This document shows positions 52,422 to 60,600 of a DNA stretch of 64,000 nucleotides, piece by piece. The stretch covers positions 62,001 through 126,000 of the forward strand of contig PKEX01000009.1 in assembly GCA_002919235.1 (NCBI GenBank), read 5' to 3'. Below the pieces are notes generated by a model. The model was not told the DNA's origin. It did not search any database and saw only the letters and a program-made list of their open reading frames with translations. The stretch comes from Clostridia bacterium. Its GTDB lineage: Bacteria > Bacillota > Limnochordia > DTU080 > RSA5. The first letter of the stretch is position 1, and the number at the start of each line of letters is the position of its first letter. Position numbers and translations under genes: made by a program.

Positions 52422-53162
52422 ATGGCCGGCTCTCTTCGCCCCGTCCCGCTCCGGAGCGTCTTCATCGACGCGACGCCGATCGCGCTGAGCTACGTCCCGT
52501 TCGGCGTCCTCTTCGGCGCCTTGGGCCAGCGGGCCGGCCTCTCCCTTTTCGAAGCCAGCGCGATGTCGCTGTTGGTGTACTCGGGCGCGGCGCAGCTGGT
52601 GGCGGCCCAGATGCTGGCCGTAGGCGCGGCGCCGTACACGGTGGTGGCGGCTTCGGCCATTCTCACCATCCGGCACGTGCTGATGGGCGCCTCGCTCTCT
52701 CCGTACACCCGGCGGCTGCCGGCCTGGGCCAAGCTGCTCTTGAGCCCCTTGATGACCGACGAGAGCTTCGCGCTGGCTTGGGGCCGCTACCGCCGCGAAC
52801 CCGGCGCGCACGGCTTTTTCCTCGGCGCGAACCTGTACCTTTACGCCACGTGGAACCTCTCTACCGTGGTCGGCTACTTCGCCGGCCAAGCGGCCCCCGC
52901 GCTGCTGGGCCTCGGCCTCGACCTCGTCTTCCCGCTGCTCTTTGTGGCCATCCTCGCCGGCATGACCCGCAGCGGGAGCGAGCTCCTGGCAGCCGCAAGC
53001 GGGATCGCCGCAGCCGCGATCGGCCGGCGCTGGCTGGGAGCGGAGTGGGCGATCCCCGCCGGCGGCGTCCTGGCCGCCGCCGTGGGCCTGGCTGCGGAGA
53101 AGGCTCTGGGCTCTCAGGGCGCGGGCGGGCACCCGAAGGCGGTGGACGCGCCCGATGAGTGA
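52422..53162 (+). CDS. azlC: Branched-chain amino acid exporter large subunit
   Basis: A 246-residue membrane protein with about 7 helices, matching the AzlC family: IALSYVPFGVLFGALG, SLLVYSGAAQLVAAQML and HVLMGASLSPYTRRLP. It works with AzlD to export branched-chain amino acids or analogues. ATG 52422 is 9 bases after the purU stop, with no clear ribosome site, suggesting coupling to purU. The coding end overlaps azlD by 8 bases. Confidence 0.9.
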   Translation: MAGSLRPVPLRSVFIDATPIALSYVPFGVLFGALGQRAGLSLFEASAMSLLVYSGAAQLVAAQMLAVGAAPYTVVAASAILTIRHVLMGASLSPYTRRLPAWAKLLLSPLMTDESFALAWGRYRREPGAHGFFLGANLYLYATWNLSTVVGYFAGQAAPALLGLGLDLVFPLLFVAILAGMTRSGSELLAAASGIAAAAIGRRWLGAEWAIPAGGVLAAAVGLAAEKALGSQGAGGHPKAVDAPDE

Positions 53163-53469
53163 CTCTCTCATCCTCATGATCCTGGCCATGAGCGTCCTGA
53201 CCATGGGCAGCCGCGTGCTCGGCTTCTTCGCAGTGAGCGAGCCCAAAGGCGCGCTGGGGCGGGCGCTGCACTATCTGCCGTTCGGGCTTTTCGGCGCGAT
53301 CGTGGTGACGGGACTGCCGCAGGATCCGGGCGCCTCCTGGCCCGCGGTAGCCGCGGCGATCCTGGCCACCGCCGCCGCCGCCTGGCGAAAGTGGCCCGTC
53401 GTCCTCGCCCTCGCCGCAGGCTATACCGCCTGGGCCCTGGCCCGGTGGATCCTGCCGCCGGTTTCGTGA
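53155..53469 (+). CDS. azlD: Branched-chain amino acid exporter small subunit
   Basis: A 104-residue protein with four helices: MILAMSVLTMGSRVLGFF at the start, then HYLPFGLFGAIVVTGL, typical of AzlD. Its start lies inside azlC (8-base overlap), as in other azlCD pairs. No Lrp-type regulator (azlB) is adjacent. Confidence 0.9.
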   Translation: MSDSLILMILAMSVLTMGSRVLGFFAVSEPKGALGRALHYLPFGLFGAIVVTGLPQDPGASWPAVAAAILATAAAAWRKWPVVLALAAGYTAWALARWILPPVS

Positions 53470-56651: not shown

Positions 56652-57356
56652 ATGTTGTCGCTATGGCGTGAAACGCTGGCAGAGGTTTTCAAGTCTACGG
56701 CACCTATCGTCGCGCTCTTGATCGTCCTGCGACTGACCTTGATCGAATTCGACGTCACCGAGGTCTCCGTGGTCATCTTAGGCAGCCTCATGGCCCTCGC
56801 CGGCTTAGTGCTGTTCTTGTTCGGCGCCCGGGCAGGCATCGTTCCTTTCGGCGAACGATTGGGCGCCCAGCTGCCCGGCTACCGCTCGCTGGTCCTTCTC
56901 ATCGTGTTCGGCGTCATCATCGGGCTTGCGATCACCGTTGCCGAGCCCAACGTCCGGGTGATGGAAGCGCAGGTGAACCAAGCGGCGCCCGGGTTCCTTC
57001 CCCCCGGCTCGCTGGTGTGGGCCATCGTCCTCGGCGTGGCGGTCTTCACGGGACTGGGCATGGTGCGCACGGCCTTTCAGATCCCGCTGATCTGGCTCTT
57101 GGTCCCCAGCTACCTGCTGAGCTTCATCTTGATCTTCCTTGCCCCGCCGGAATTCGTAGGCATTGCATATGACTCGGGAGGCGCGGCTACGGGGCCGCTT
57201 TCGGTACCGTTCATCATCGCATTTAACGTAGGTGTCGTCTCCGTTCTCGGCAGGGCCAAGGGAGTGGAGGACAGCTTCGGCGTGGTGGCCCTGGCCTCAA
57301 TCGGACCGGTCATCGCGGTGCTCCTCCTCGGGGTGCTGCTCGGAGGTATCCGCTGA
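56652..57356 (+). CDS. DUF1538 membrane protein, first subunit
   Basis: A 234-residue polytopic protein with about 7 helices. The family motif VGIAYDSGGAATGP is at 169-182, and an AEP motif within TVAEPN at 98-100. DUF1538 pairs have been described as two-component cation/proton antiporters (UmpAB); that name is from memory. ATG 56652 is about 16 bases after AAGGAGG; the frame stays open to 56508 but without support. It is followed after 2 bases by a second DUF1538 gene. Confidence 0.85.
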   Translation: MLSLWRETLAEVFKSTAPIVALLIVLRLTLIEFDVTEVSVVILGSLMALAGLVLFLFGARAGIVPFGERLGAQLPGYRSLVLLIVFGVIIGLAITVAEPNVRVMEAQVNQAAPGFLPPGSLVWAIVLGVAVFTGLGMVRTAFQIPLIWLLVPSYLLSFILIFLAPPEFVGIAYDSGGAATGPLSVPFIIAFNVGVVSVLGRAKGVEDSFGVVALASIGPVIAVLLLGVLLGGIR

Positions 57357-57358
57357 CG

Positions 57359-58126
57359 ATGGAAATCCTCCAGGCGCTCTTCCGAGACATCGACGAAACG
57401 CTGAAGGTGGTCCTCGCGGCCATCGGCCCCATCTTCGTCCTCCTTTTGATCACCCAGGTGACGATGCTGCGCATGAACCGCAAGGAGCTCCGGGCCAAGC
57501 TGCGCGGTTTCTTTTTCGCCACGGTAGGCCTGCTCCTGTTCCTGCAAGGGGTGGAGGTGGCCTTCATCCCGGTGGGGGAGGCTTTGGGCTACTCAGTCGC
57601 GGTCAAATGGTCGCCGTGGTGGCTGGTGCCCATCGGCTTTGCCCTGGGGTTCCTCGCGACGTTCGCGGAGCCGGCGGTACAGCTCTTGGCGGACGAGGTG
57701 TATAATACGTCGGGAGGCGCCATCCCCCGGGGCCTGGTCCTCTGGACGCTGGCCATCGGGGTGGGCGTCTCCGTCGCGCTGGCGATTACCCGCACTATTT
57801 TGGGAATCCCGCTGTGGCTGCTGCTGGTGCCCGGGCACCTTGTGGGCCTGGCCTTGATCCCCTTCTGCGACAAGGACTTTGTCGGCATCGCGTACGACTC
57901 GGGGGGCGCGGCCACGGGGCCCATGACGGTCTCGTTCATCGTCGCGCTGGCGCTGGGCGTCGCCGCGGCGTTTCCCGACAGGAATCCCGTGATCGACGGC
58001 TTCGGGCTGGTAGCCTTTGTGCTGCTCGCGCCCATACTAAGCGTGCTGGTCGTCGGGGTGCTTTACGCACGAAAGAGGAGGGCCTTGGATGCAGAGTCCG
58101 AGAGAGTTGAACAACCAGGCGTTTGA
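57359..58126 (+). CDS. DUF1538 membrane protein, second subunit
   Basis: A 255-residue membrane protein with about 7 helices. It is homologous to the first subunit: the same VGIAYDSGGAATGP motif (175-188) and AEP motif (103-105), in the same order. Sequence differs enough elsewhere that the two are long-separated subunits, probably forming a pseudo-symmetric heterodimer. It overlaps the PII-like gene by 38 bases. Confidence 0.85.
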   Translation: MEILQALFRDIDETLKVVLAAIGPIFVLLLITQVTMLRMNRKELRAKLRGFFFATVGLLLFLQGVEVAFIPVGEALGYSVAVKWSPWWLVPIGFALGFLATFAEPAVQLLADEVYNTSGGAIPRGLVLWTLAIGVGVSVALAITRTILGIPLWLLLVPGHLVGLALIPFCDKDFVGIAYDSGGAATGPMTVSFIVALALGVAAAFPDRNPVIDGFGLVAFVLLAPILSVLVVGVLYARKRRALDAESERVEQPGV

Positions 58127-58436
58127 CCTCATCGTCACCATTGTGAATCGGGGTGCGGCAGAGGACGTCATCGACGCCGCCCGCGAAGGAGGGGCGGAGG
58201 GAGCCACCGTGGTGCTGGGCAGGGGCAGCGGGATCCACGAGAAGGGGACGTTCCTCGGCATTCCCATCGAGCCCGCCAAGGACCTGGTCCTCATCGTGAC
58301 CCCGGAAGAAAAGACCGACCGGATCTTGGAATCGATCCAGCACAAGGTGGAACTGGACAAGCCGGGACACGGCATCGGTTTTGTCATCCCGCTCAAGAAG
58401 GTCGTGGGCATCGCGCACCTCGGGCGGACGTCGTGA
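58089..58436 (+). CDS. PII-like signalling protein linked to the DUF1538 pair
   Basis: A 115-residue protein of the PII (GlnB-like) superfamily: FDLIVTIVNRGAAEDVIDAAREGGAEGATVVLGRGSG, DLVLIVTPEEKTDRILESIQ, and the C-terminal PGHGIGFVIPLKKVVGIAH. The classical T-loop uridylylation tyrosine and glutamine-type T-loop are not present, so it is a PII-like rather than canonical nitrogen regulator. ATG 58089 follows AGGAGG and lies inside the transporter gene, so the three proteins are made together. It probably gates the DUF1538 transporter in response to a nucleotide. Confidence 0.85.
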   Translation: MQSPRELNNQAFDLIVTIVNRGAAEDVIDAAREGGAEGATVVLGRGSGIHEKGTFLGIPIEPAKDLVLIVTPEEKTDRILESIQHKVELDKPGHGIGFVIPLKKVVGIAHLGRTS

Positions 58437-58734: not shown

Positions 58735-60600
58735 ATGCGCCTGAGACGCACGGGGTTGCCGCAGGTGTTGTCGCTTCTCTTGAGCCTTTTGGCTTTGGTC
58801 GTCGCCGGGGCGGCCGCGCCGGCCGCTGCGCAACCGGAGGCGCAGGATCAGGCCGCCGCCGGCTCCGGGCCTTACCGGAACACCCGGGGCATTCCTTCGC
58901 TGAAAGAGATCTACGCCGACAAGTTTCTGATCGGCTTTGCCACGGGCCTCTACTACTCGGAAGTGGAGGACCTGATGGCTCACCTCTACAACGCCCTCAC
59001 GCCTGAAAACGAGATGAAGTGGCAGTCCGTCCAGCCCGCTCCGGGGCGGTTCAATTTCAACGCCGCGGACCAGCTGGCCCGCTTCGCCGAGCAGAACGGC
59101 ATGAAGCTCATCGGCCACACGCTGGTGTGGCACAGCCAGACGCCCCTCTGGGTGTGGCAGCGGCCCGACGGCACTCGCCGCACGCGCGAGGAGCTGCTCC
59201 AGATCATGGAGGAGCACATCCGCAGCGTGGCCGGGCGCTACGCCGGCCGCATTTACCAGTGGGACGTGGTGAACGAGGCGGTCGAGCAGTACGGCGGCGT
59301 CTGGCAGCTGCGCCGTTCGCCGTGGCTGGAGATCATAGGCGAAGACTACATCGAGCACGCGTTCCGCATCGCCCACGAAGTCGATCCCCGGGCGATGCTC
59401 CTCTACAACGACTACAGCAGCACCGATCCGGGAAAGCGCGACCGCATCTACCAGCTTCTCAAGGACCTGCTGGACAAGGGCGTACCGGTCCACGGCGTCG
59501 GCATGCAGGGCCACTGGAACCTTTACTACCCGTCGGCCGAACAGATCCGCCAGGCCATCGAGAAGTACGCCTCCTTGGGCCTGCGGGTGAACATCACCGA
59601 GCTCGACATCAGCGTCTACGAATGGTCGGACCGGAGCAACCGCTACCCCACCGGCCTGCCCGAGAGCATGCTCGAGCGGCAGGCGGAGCGGTACGCCGAG
59701 ATCTTCCGGGTTTTCCTGGAGTACCACCACGTCATCGACCGGGTGTCGTTCTGGGGGACCACCGACCGCCGCAGCTGGCTCAACAACTACCCGCAGCCCA
59801 ACCGGCCCGACCACCCGCTTCTGATCGACAGGTACGGCCAGCTGAAGCCGGCCTTCTGGGCCATCGTCGATCCGTACCGCCCGTGGTACGTCAACAAGGC
59901 AGAGTACCTGGGTGCCGCGGTGTTTGAGACGGCGGACGGAACCGAGGTGGGAACCCTTATCCCCGGCAGGTACCAGCTGGAGGAGCTGGCGGCCAAAGGG
60001 TTCGACCTCGCCCGCGTTGAGCGGCTCGCGATCGAGCGCGGCCACATGGTCACCTTCTATGAAACTGCCGACTTCGACGGCGAATCGTGGGCGTACACGG
60101 GAACGACAGCCATCGACGGGGCCGGCCTGGCGCAAAAGGTCCGCTCGATGGTGATCGAGTACACCGGAGCCGCGAACGTCGCCGCCCAGCGGCCCGTGAC
60201 GGCCAGCGCCGATGAGGCGCGGGCCGTCCGGGCCGTGGACGGCGACCCCAACACCAGCTGGTCTTCGAACCGCGGCGCGCCCTATTGGCTCGCCGTCGAC
60301 CTGGGAGACGAGTACACCCTCACCGGCTGGGCAGTGAGACTGGCCGGGAGCAGCTCGCTGCTGGGCGGTCCCTCCGAAGGCCCTCTCAACGCCGCCGACT
60401 TTGAACTGCAAGTGAGCCGCGACGGGGTGAACTGGACCACCGTCGACCGGGTGGAAGGCAACACGCAGAGTATCGTCGAGCGAGAGATCCAGCCGGCCAC
60501 CGGCCGGCACGTCCGGCTGTACGTGAGCAAACCCACGTCGCTGGAGTTCAACAAGAATCTCGTGGTGTACGAGTTCGAGGTCTACGGGTTTACGCGGTGA
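58735..60600 (+). CDS. Secreted GH10 endo-1,4-beta-xylanase with two accessory domains
   Basis: A 621-residue exported enzyme. Signal peptide 1-32. GH10 catalytic domain about 53-385, with acid/base E181 (WDVVNE) and nucleophile E289 (NITELDIS) and the substrate motif GHTLVWHSQTP. Residues about 390-458 resemble a beta/gamma-crystallin-like module (PGRYQLEELAAKG...VTFYETADFDGESWAY). Residues about 462-620 form an F5/8-type (discoidin, CBM32-like) domain. It hydrolyses xylan outside the cell. ATG 58735 has GGGGAGG upstream. No other xylan genes are adjacent; the LacI-like site suggests sugar control. Confidence 0.93.
   Translation: MRLRRTGLPQVLSLLLSLLALVVAGAAAPAAAQPEAQDQAAAGSGPYRNTRGIPSLKEIYADKFLIGFATGLYYSEVEDLMAHLYNALTPENEMKWQSVQPAPGRFNFNAADQLARFAEQNGMKLIGHTLVWHSQTPLWVWQRPDGTRRTREELLQIMEEHIRSVAGRYAGRIYQWDVVNEAVEQYGGVWQLRRSPWLEIIGEDYIEHAFRIAHEVDPRAMLLYNDYSSTDPGKRDRIYQLLKDLLDKGVPVHGVGMQGHWNLYYPSAEQIRQAIEKYASLGLRVNITELDISVYEWSDRSNRYPTGLPESMLERQAERYAEIFRVFLEYHHVIDRVSFWGTTDRRSWLNNYPQPNRPDHPLLIDRYGQLKPAFWAIVDPYRPWYVNKAEYLGAAVFETADGTEVGTLIPGRYQLEELAAKGFDLARVERLAIERGHMVTFYETADFDGESWAYTGTTAIDGAGLAQKVRSMVIEYTGAANVAAQRPVTASADEARAVRAVDGDPNTSWSSNRGAPYWLAVDLGDEYTLTGWAVRLAGSSSLLGGPSEGPLNAADFELQVSRDGVNWTTVDRVEGNTQSIVEREIQPATGRHVRLYVSKPTSLEFNKNLVVYEFEVYGFTR

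Follow-up and report, generated by a model that had tools for sequence, protein, structure and literature searches.

A conserved operon of two DUF1538 membrane subunits and a PII-like protein: a candidate PII-gated cation/proton antiporter

The window that we analyzed is a 64,000-nucleotide stretch of contig PKEX01000009.1 from a Clostridia bacterium. It contains three genes, designated A, B, and C, which encode two homologous membrane subunits followed by a PII-like protein (Table 1). An earlier reading based on the sequence only (termed the sequence-only reading) had placed the three open reading frames correctly, all on the plus strand, with +2 bases between A and B and −38 bases between B and C, the PII gene indeed starting within the gene of the second membrane subunit, with which it overlaps by 38 bases. 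The upstream neighbor of the operon encodes an AAA ATPase on the opposite strand and the downstream neighbor, after a gap of ∼300 bases, a GH10 xylanase, so that the unit consists of A, B, and C only. We saw no sigma-70-like promoter at the window operon. Control by a riboswitch was considered and rejected, since no Rfam element was found at the operon and since the few Rfam matches obtained in 51 other loci were never located just upstream of the DUF1538 genes. As for the surroundings, the xylanase gene directly 3' of the operon (58735-60600) also encodes a C-terminal F5/8-type carbohydrate-binding domain, and two overlapping genes for small membrane proteins at 52422-53469, located after a formyltetrahydrofolate deformylase-like gene, resemble AzlC/AzlD (branched-chain amino acid export), both assignments in this latter region being judged from the open reading frames alone.

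Table 1. Features of the DUF1538-PII operon (positions refer to the window)
Feature	Position	Strand	Description or basis
Gene A (umpA-like), DUF1538 subunit	56652..57356	+	234 aa, 7 TM, predicted N-in/C-out
AEP motif of A (break in TM3)	56940..56948	+	sequence; conservation
GIAYDSGGAATGP motif of A (break in TM6)	57159..57197	+	sequence; conservation
Gene B (umpB-like), DUF1538 subunit	57359..58126	+	255 aa, 7 TM, predicted N-out/C-in
AEP motif of B	57665..57673	+	sequence; conservation; AF2 model of B
GIAYDSGGAATGP motif of B	57884..57922	+	sequence; conservation; AF2 model of B
Shine-Dalgarno AGGAGG, likely ribosome site of gene C, within gene B	58076..58081	+	sequence
Gene C, PII-like regulator (umpC proposed), "second domain" (PC) type	58089..58436	+	115 aa
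T-loop region GRGSGIHE...IEPAK of C	58218..58280	+	alignment to GlnB

We compared A and B with known protein families and folds. Both matched the full 211-position Pfam model of DUF1538 (PF07556, cut-off 22.6), with E values of 5.4e-63 for A (212.6 bits) and 1.3e-67 for B (227.6 bits), and the two proteins are 38% identical (89/234). The AEP and GIAYDSGGAATGP motifs that had been noticed in the two membrane subunits are present in each of them; P105 is invariant and E104 nearly invariant in the first motif, and D180 and G187 are invariant in the second (B numbering). In the AlphaFold2 model of B (mean pLDDT of 96), helices are broken at AEP and at DSGG...TGP, and we propose from this model that the broken helices probably form the ion site. 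A Foldseek search of the PDB with the model of B gave no match at an E value of ≤0.001 (the best, BbZIP, had 0.44), so that the transporter fold of B is not related to that of SbtA or AmtB by this measure. Inferring the structure by homology was likewise abandoned, as the PDB holds no relative of DUF1538, whether by sequence or by fold.

The sole characterized DUF1538 case among the papers that we found is UmpAB from Halomonas zhaodongensis, a hetero-dimer that, when expressed in E. coli KNabc, exchanges Na+(Li+,K+) for H+ in a pH-dependent manner (PMC5484666). The window pair shares with UmpAB the organization into paired homologous DUF1538 proteins of 7 TM each, encoded by closely spaced genes, which overlap by one base in Halomonas and are separated by +2 bases in the window (PMC5484666). 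UmpAB was active in E. coli although no PII partner had been introduced with it; the paper contains no mention of PII, of membrane orientation, of topology, or of the terms dual and inverted, and uses "orientation" for cloning only (PMC5484666). Against the UmpA and UmpB models (NF041627 and NF041628; cut-offs 490/500), A scored 89.9 and 83.4 bits and B scored 121.8 and 91 bits, values so far below the equivalog cut-offs that A and B are members of the family rather than equivalogs, and their substrate is something that we infer. The nearest relatives of UmpAB that we reached, in the phylum of Pseudodesulfovibrio (316-360 bits to the UmpA/UmpB models), do have an adjacent PII gene. By analogy with UmpAB, we infer that A and B together would exchange Na+/K+ for H+. 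The sequence-only reading had left the substrate unassigned and had put forward cation/proton exchange and bicarbonate as first ideas; the characterized relative UmpAB, which it did not name, provides a precedent that makes cation/proton exchange the right first idea, and bicarbonate received no support.

An antiparallel transporter regulated by its own PII might also carry something other than Na+/K+, such as a different cation, a metabolite, or an anion, for instance bicarbonate. We regard this alternative as unlikely. In its favor, A and B reach only 83-122 bits for UmpA/UmpB cut-offs of 490/500, no fold in the PDB matches the AlphaFold2 model and thereby defines the chemistry, and SbtA is a PII-gated bicarbonate transporter (PMC8352866). 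However, Na+(Li+,K+)/H+ antiport is the sole activity of the DUF1538 proteins characterized so far, and the conserved carboxylates (E of AEP and D of YDSGG) suit cation/proton exchange. In addition, a 2026 model lists DUF1538 among the genes informative for growth pH (PMC13255231). We retain exchange of Na+ or K+ for H+ as the preferred activity of the pair.

The third protein, C, matched the Pfam P-II family (PF00543) with an E value of 1.3e-9 (38.7 bits, gathering cut-off of 25). Its AlphaFold2 model (pLDDT of 85) has the ferredoxin-like PII fold, and the best Foldseek matches of this model were GlnK1 (E value of 5e-7, probability of 1.00), E. coli GlnK, and SbtB. As had been pointed out from the sequence, the T-loop residue Tyr51, site of uridylylation/adenylylation, is absent, and C in fact contains no tyrosine at all; its T-loop region is five residues shorter than that of E. 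coli GlnB. The loop glycines of GlnB are kept in C, as is T29 of E. coli GlnB, which corresponds to T40 in C and is invariant in 85 homologues, and R45, G46, G48, E51, P62, and K64 are further conserved positions. R38, K90, R101, and R103 of GlnB, which are the phosphate ligands of ATP/ADP, are replaced in C by I49, I96, G107, and A109, respectively, G107 being found in 80/85 homologues. Since the four basic phosphate ligands are replaced, a classical ATP/2-oxoglutarate site is unlikely in C; from its sequence, it is possible that C binds an adenine compound in another, non-classical manner. The earlier suggestion of a nucleotide-gated system is therefore weakened, T29 being kept in its favor but R38, K90, R101, R103, and Y51 all being replaced.

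C is the sole PF00543 match in its genome, which is 99% complete and contains neither a classical PII nor an ammonium transporter (PF00909). We rejected nitrogen control of AmtB by C because the genome has neither another PII nor an ammonium transporter. AmtB-GlnK nevertheless offers a parallel, in that a PII-family protein works with a membrane transporter and that GlnK and archaeal GlnK1 were among the best fold matches of C; C differs from GlnK in that the residues of the classical ATP/2-oxoglutarate site and of uridylylation are replaced and the genome lacks the ammonium channel. In common with PII-gated transporters in general, the DUF1538 genes are accompanied in many lineages by a linked PII gene of their own. 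The SbtA-SbtB system is similar in that a transporter gene is followed by its own PII-like gene and that the transporter is an inverted repeat, of 5+5 rather than the 7+7 considered here; the T-loop of SbtB is inserted into SbtA and SbtB binds AMP/cAMP (PMC8352866).

The genome also encodes two DAC-domain c-di-AMP synthases, and Gram-positive bacteria use c-di-AMP to control K+ transport and osmotic transport, two points which would fit an antiporter gated by c-di-AMP via C, much as PstA/DarA senses c-di-AMP. We judge this alternative distinctly unlikely, as PstA belongs to a Pfam family different from that of PII and as the DUF1538-linked PII also occurs in organisms and phyla in which the use of c-di-AMP is putative. 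Moreover, the loop lengths of PstA are reversed relative to those of PII (PMC6516651). For the antiporter gated by a PII-like protein that we favor, our first guess is that the ligand of C would be a non-classically bound adenine nucleotide or c-di-AMP.

We then looked into the association of DUF1538 and PII genes across genomes. In a set of 41 genomes, made up of that of the window and its relatives, 27 contain DUF1538, and the PII subfamily was matched strongly in every one of these 27; it was matched in only one of the 14 genomes without DUF1538, and weakly (G037, E=3e-6). Extending the count to 299 genomes of the phylum, DUF1538 was found in 101 and the PII subfamily in 102 (E ≤ 1e-8), with 100 genomes containing both, 1 containing DUF1538 only (G107), 2 containing PII only (G053 and G100, both weak matches), and 196 containing neither (Fisher's p of ∼2e-76, a value which ignores relatedness). 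Among 80 named loci taken from a scan of ∼85,000 species genomes, the PII gene was directly downstream in all except five, two of which lie at a contig end. The order of two DUF1538 genes or one fused gene followed by PII (D-D-P or D2-P) was found in Bacillota, methanogenic archaea, Spirochaetota, Balneolota, Desulfobacterota, and others, D-P neighbors being present in no fewer than six phyla when named organisms are considered, and on plasmids of Chelativorans, Methylocystis, and Paraclostridium, which include plasmids of Alphaproteobacteria. Because gene order is conserved across phyla, the association goes far beyond chance. The sequence-only reading had staked the functional link on the PII-like gene being conserved beside DUF1538 pairs in other genomes, and its proposal of a conserved DUF1538-PII unit was borne out by this recurring adjacency. 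In one locus (L082), a single tandem PII gene is flanked by two fused DUF1538 genes (D2-P2-D2).

Two Sutcliffiella genomes (L042 and L059) and one Metabacillus genome (L091) contain a DUF1538 pair and no member of the PII subfamily genome-wide, and in another genome (G003), the PII gene is present but unlinked from its DUF1538 pair (C285; L116:4173-4511). These cases indicate that PII is an accessory or a regulator and no structural necessity. In the Metabacillus locus, the gene after the DUF1538 pair looks YitT-like, YitT being a family with a DUF2179 domain. DUF2179 is presented as a PII-like domain in PMC6516651. We also computed corrected mutual information between PII and the DUF1538 loops over 191 pairs (effective number of 151), which did not prefer cytosolic loops over outer ones.

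The existence of pairs without PII, the fact that PII proteins often have several targets, and the lack of a usable inter-protein coevolution signal in the mutual information of these 191 pairs would be compatible with C acting on another target than the transporter, the genes being co-transcribed since both answer the same stress. This alternative seems very unlikely to us, however, in view of the near-perfect co-occurrence across phyla, which holds even where PII is unlinked (G003), of the overlapping genes, and of C being the sole PII of a genome without AmtB. We keep the transporter itself as the favored target of C.

We examined the membrane orientation of A and B by counting K+R in their eight loops, mapped via one alignment, and by expressing the bias as the odd side minus the even side. 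The bias was positive in 98/98 proteins of the A class (mean of +4.1) and negative in 98/98 of the B class (mean of −7.2), counts which are not independent trials since A rows share descent and B rows likewise. In fused DUF1538-DUF1538 proteins, it was positive in 80/81 first halves (the remaining one being zero; mean of +5.2) and negative in 81/81 second halves (mean of −7.9), and solitary DUF1538 proteins (n=20) were near zero (mean of −0.85, range of −3 to +2). In PMC3962082, dual-topology proteins have a bias of −2 to +1 and the subunits of antiparallel hetero-dimers have +6/+7 or −6/−7. The predicted direction of the charge change held in all eight loops, and the flip between A and B persisted among distantly related rows. 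In the tree, A grouped with the fused first halves (SH-aLRT of 92), B grouped with the fused second halves (99), and the solitary proteins formed a group of their own (98).

From these charge patterns, A and B are predicted to be oppositely oriented, like the two halves of their fused relatives; the earlier reading had rightly recognized two homologous membrane subunits and had missed this opposite orientation. A shared orientation of A and B, with the charge pattern as a lineage accident, is very unlikely even granting the common descent within each class, since the flip concerns all eight loops, persists among distant rows, and recurs in fused forms whose odd 7-TM first half forces the second half upside-down. 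Judging from the bias and the tree, the DUF1538 family with its oppositely oriented A and B is a series that would run from dual-topology proteins to an antiparallel pair and to a fused inverted repeat. The DUF606 and SMR families display similar near-neutral solitary genes and oppositely charged gene pairs, and DUF606 includes fused inverted repeats within one family (PMC3962082). DUF1538 differs from both in having 7 TM per unit and in probably forming a cation antiporter that is partnered by a soluble PII protein.

Many relatives have two PII domains, which are encoded by separate genes or joined in one protein. Of the two domain types, the first is divergent, and single PIIs, including C, group with the second type in a tree in which many forks are weak. 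Two adjacent and divergent PII paralogues with one target are familiar from NifI1/NifI2, which differ in that their target is nitrogenase. Fused DUF1538 proteins came with two PII domains in 76/81 scored units and lone DUF1538 proteins with one in 20/20, and DUF1538 pairs were about equally divided (one PII domain in 47, two in 46). The close spacing of the genes had been taken to make a fixed stoichiometry likely, which goes too far given this even split beside DUF1538 pairs. The number of PII domains may reflect stoichiometry, as read from these sequences. However, the lone DUF1538 proteins form one clade, fusion had at least two origins, one of them in Balneolota, and unfused relatives from Balneolota already have two PII genes; with so few independent events, descent could account for the pattern. 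Two loci from the phylum of Pseudodesulfovibrio (L219 and L220) contain a fused DUF1538 gene with a long insertion, then a gene for a protein of 369-381 aa with three tandem PII-like domains, the outer ones being weak matches. From its sequence, this protein is possibly a single-chain pseudo-trimer.

We propose, as a fairly probable reading, that the operon encodes an UmpAB-type antiparallel 7+7-TM antiporter which a dedicated trimer of the PII-like protein would gate from the cytosolic side. A (N in, C out) and B (N out, C in) would form an antiparallel heterodimer corresponding to a single transporter of 14 TM built as a 7+7 inverted repeat, which would exchange Na+ or K+ for H+ by secondary antiport. 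The C trimer would sit on the cytosolic face, next to the odd loops of A and the basic C-terminal tail of B, where its short T-loop would most likely insert and keep the antiporter off until a ligand binds or leaves. C is expected to be an inhibitor or a modulator because UmpAB works without its own PII and because three genomes contain the pair only. Both the binding of C to A/B and the sign of this control are argued here by analogy.

That DUF1538 proteins can be antiporters and that transporters can be gated by PII is already known. In our search of the open-access literature, we found no earlier description of a PII protein paired with a DUF1538 antiporter, nor of an antiparallel DUF1538 architecture. 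We see even chances that the DUF1538-PII unit ("UmpABC") is a widespread, undescribed signaling antiporter that arose from a dual-topology 7-TM ancestor, with a fold absent from the PDB, a PII-trimer gate, and a non-classical ligand site, and that it still exists in three forms: solitary, as an antiparallel pair, and fused into a 7+7 inverted repeat. PII proteins are known chiefly as nitrogen and carbon sensors. We know of no cation/proton antiporter that is controlled by PII, and "UmpABC" would then be the first. If this reading is true, bacteria and archaea would share a PII subfamily that accompanies a Na+/K+:H+ antiporter in a nearly one-to-one manner, and PII control would reach the homeostasis of pH, salt, and membrane energy in alkaliphiles, methanogens, and gut Clostridia. 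Many genes whose present annotation is limited to "P-II family nitrogen regulator" or "DUF1538" would gain a testable partner and a reason, and the solitary, paired, and fused 7-TM forms would provide a clear natural series for how inverted-repeat transporters arise.
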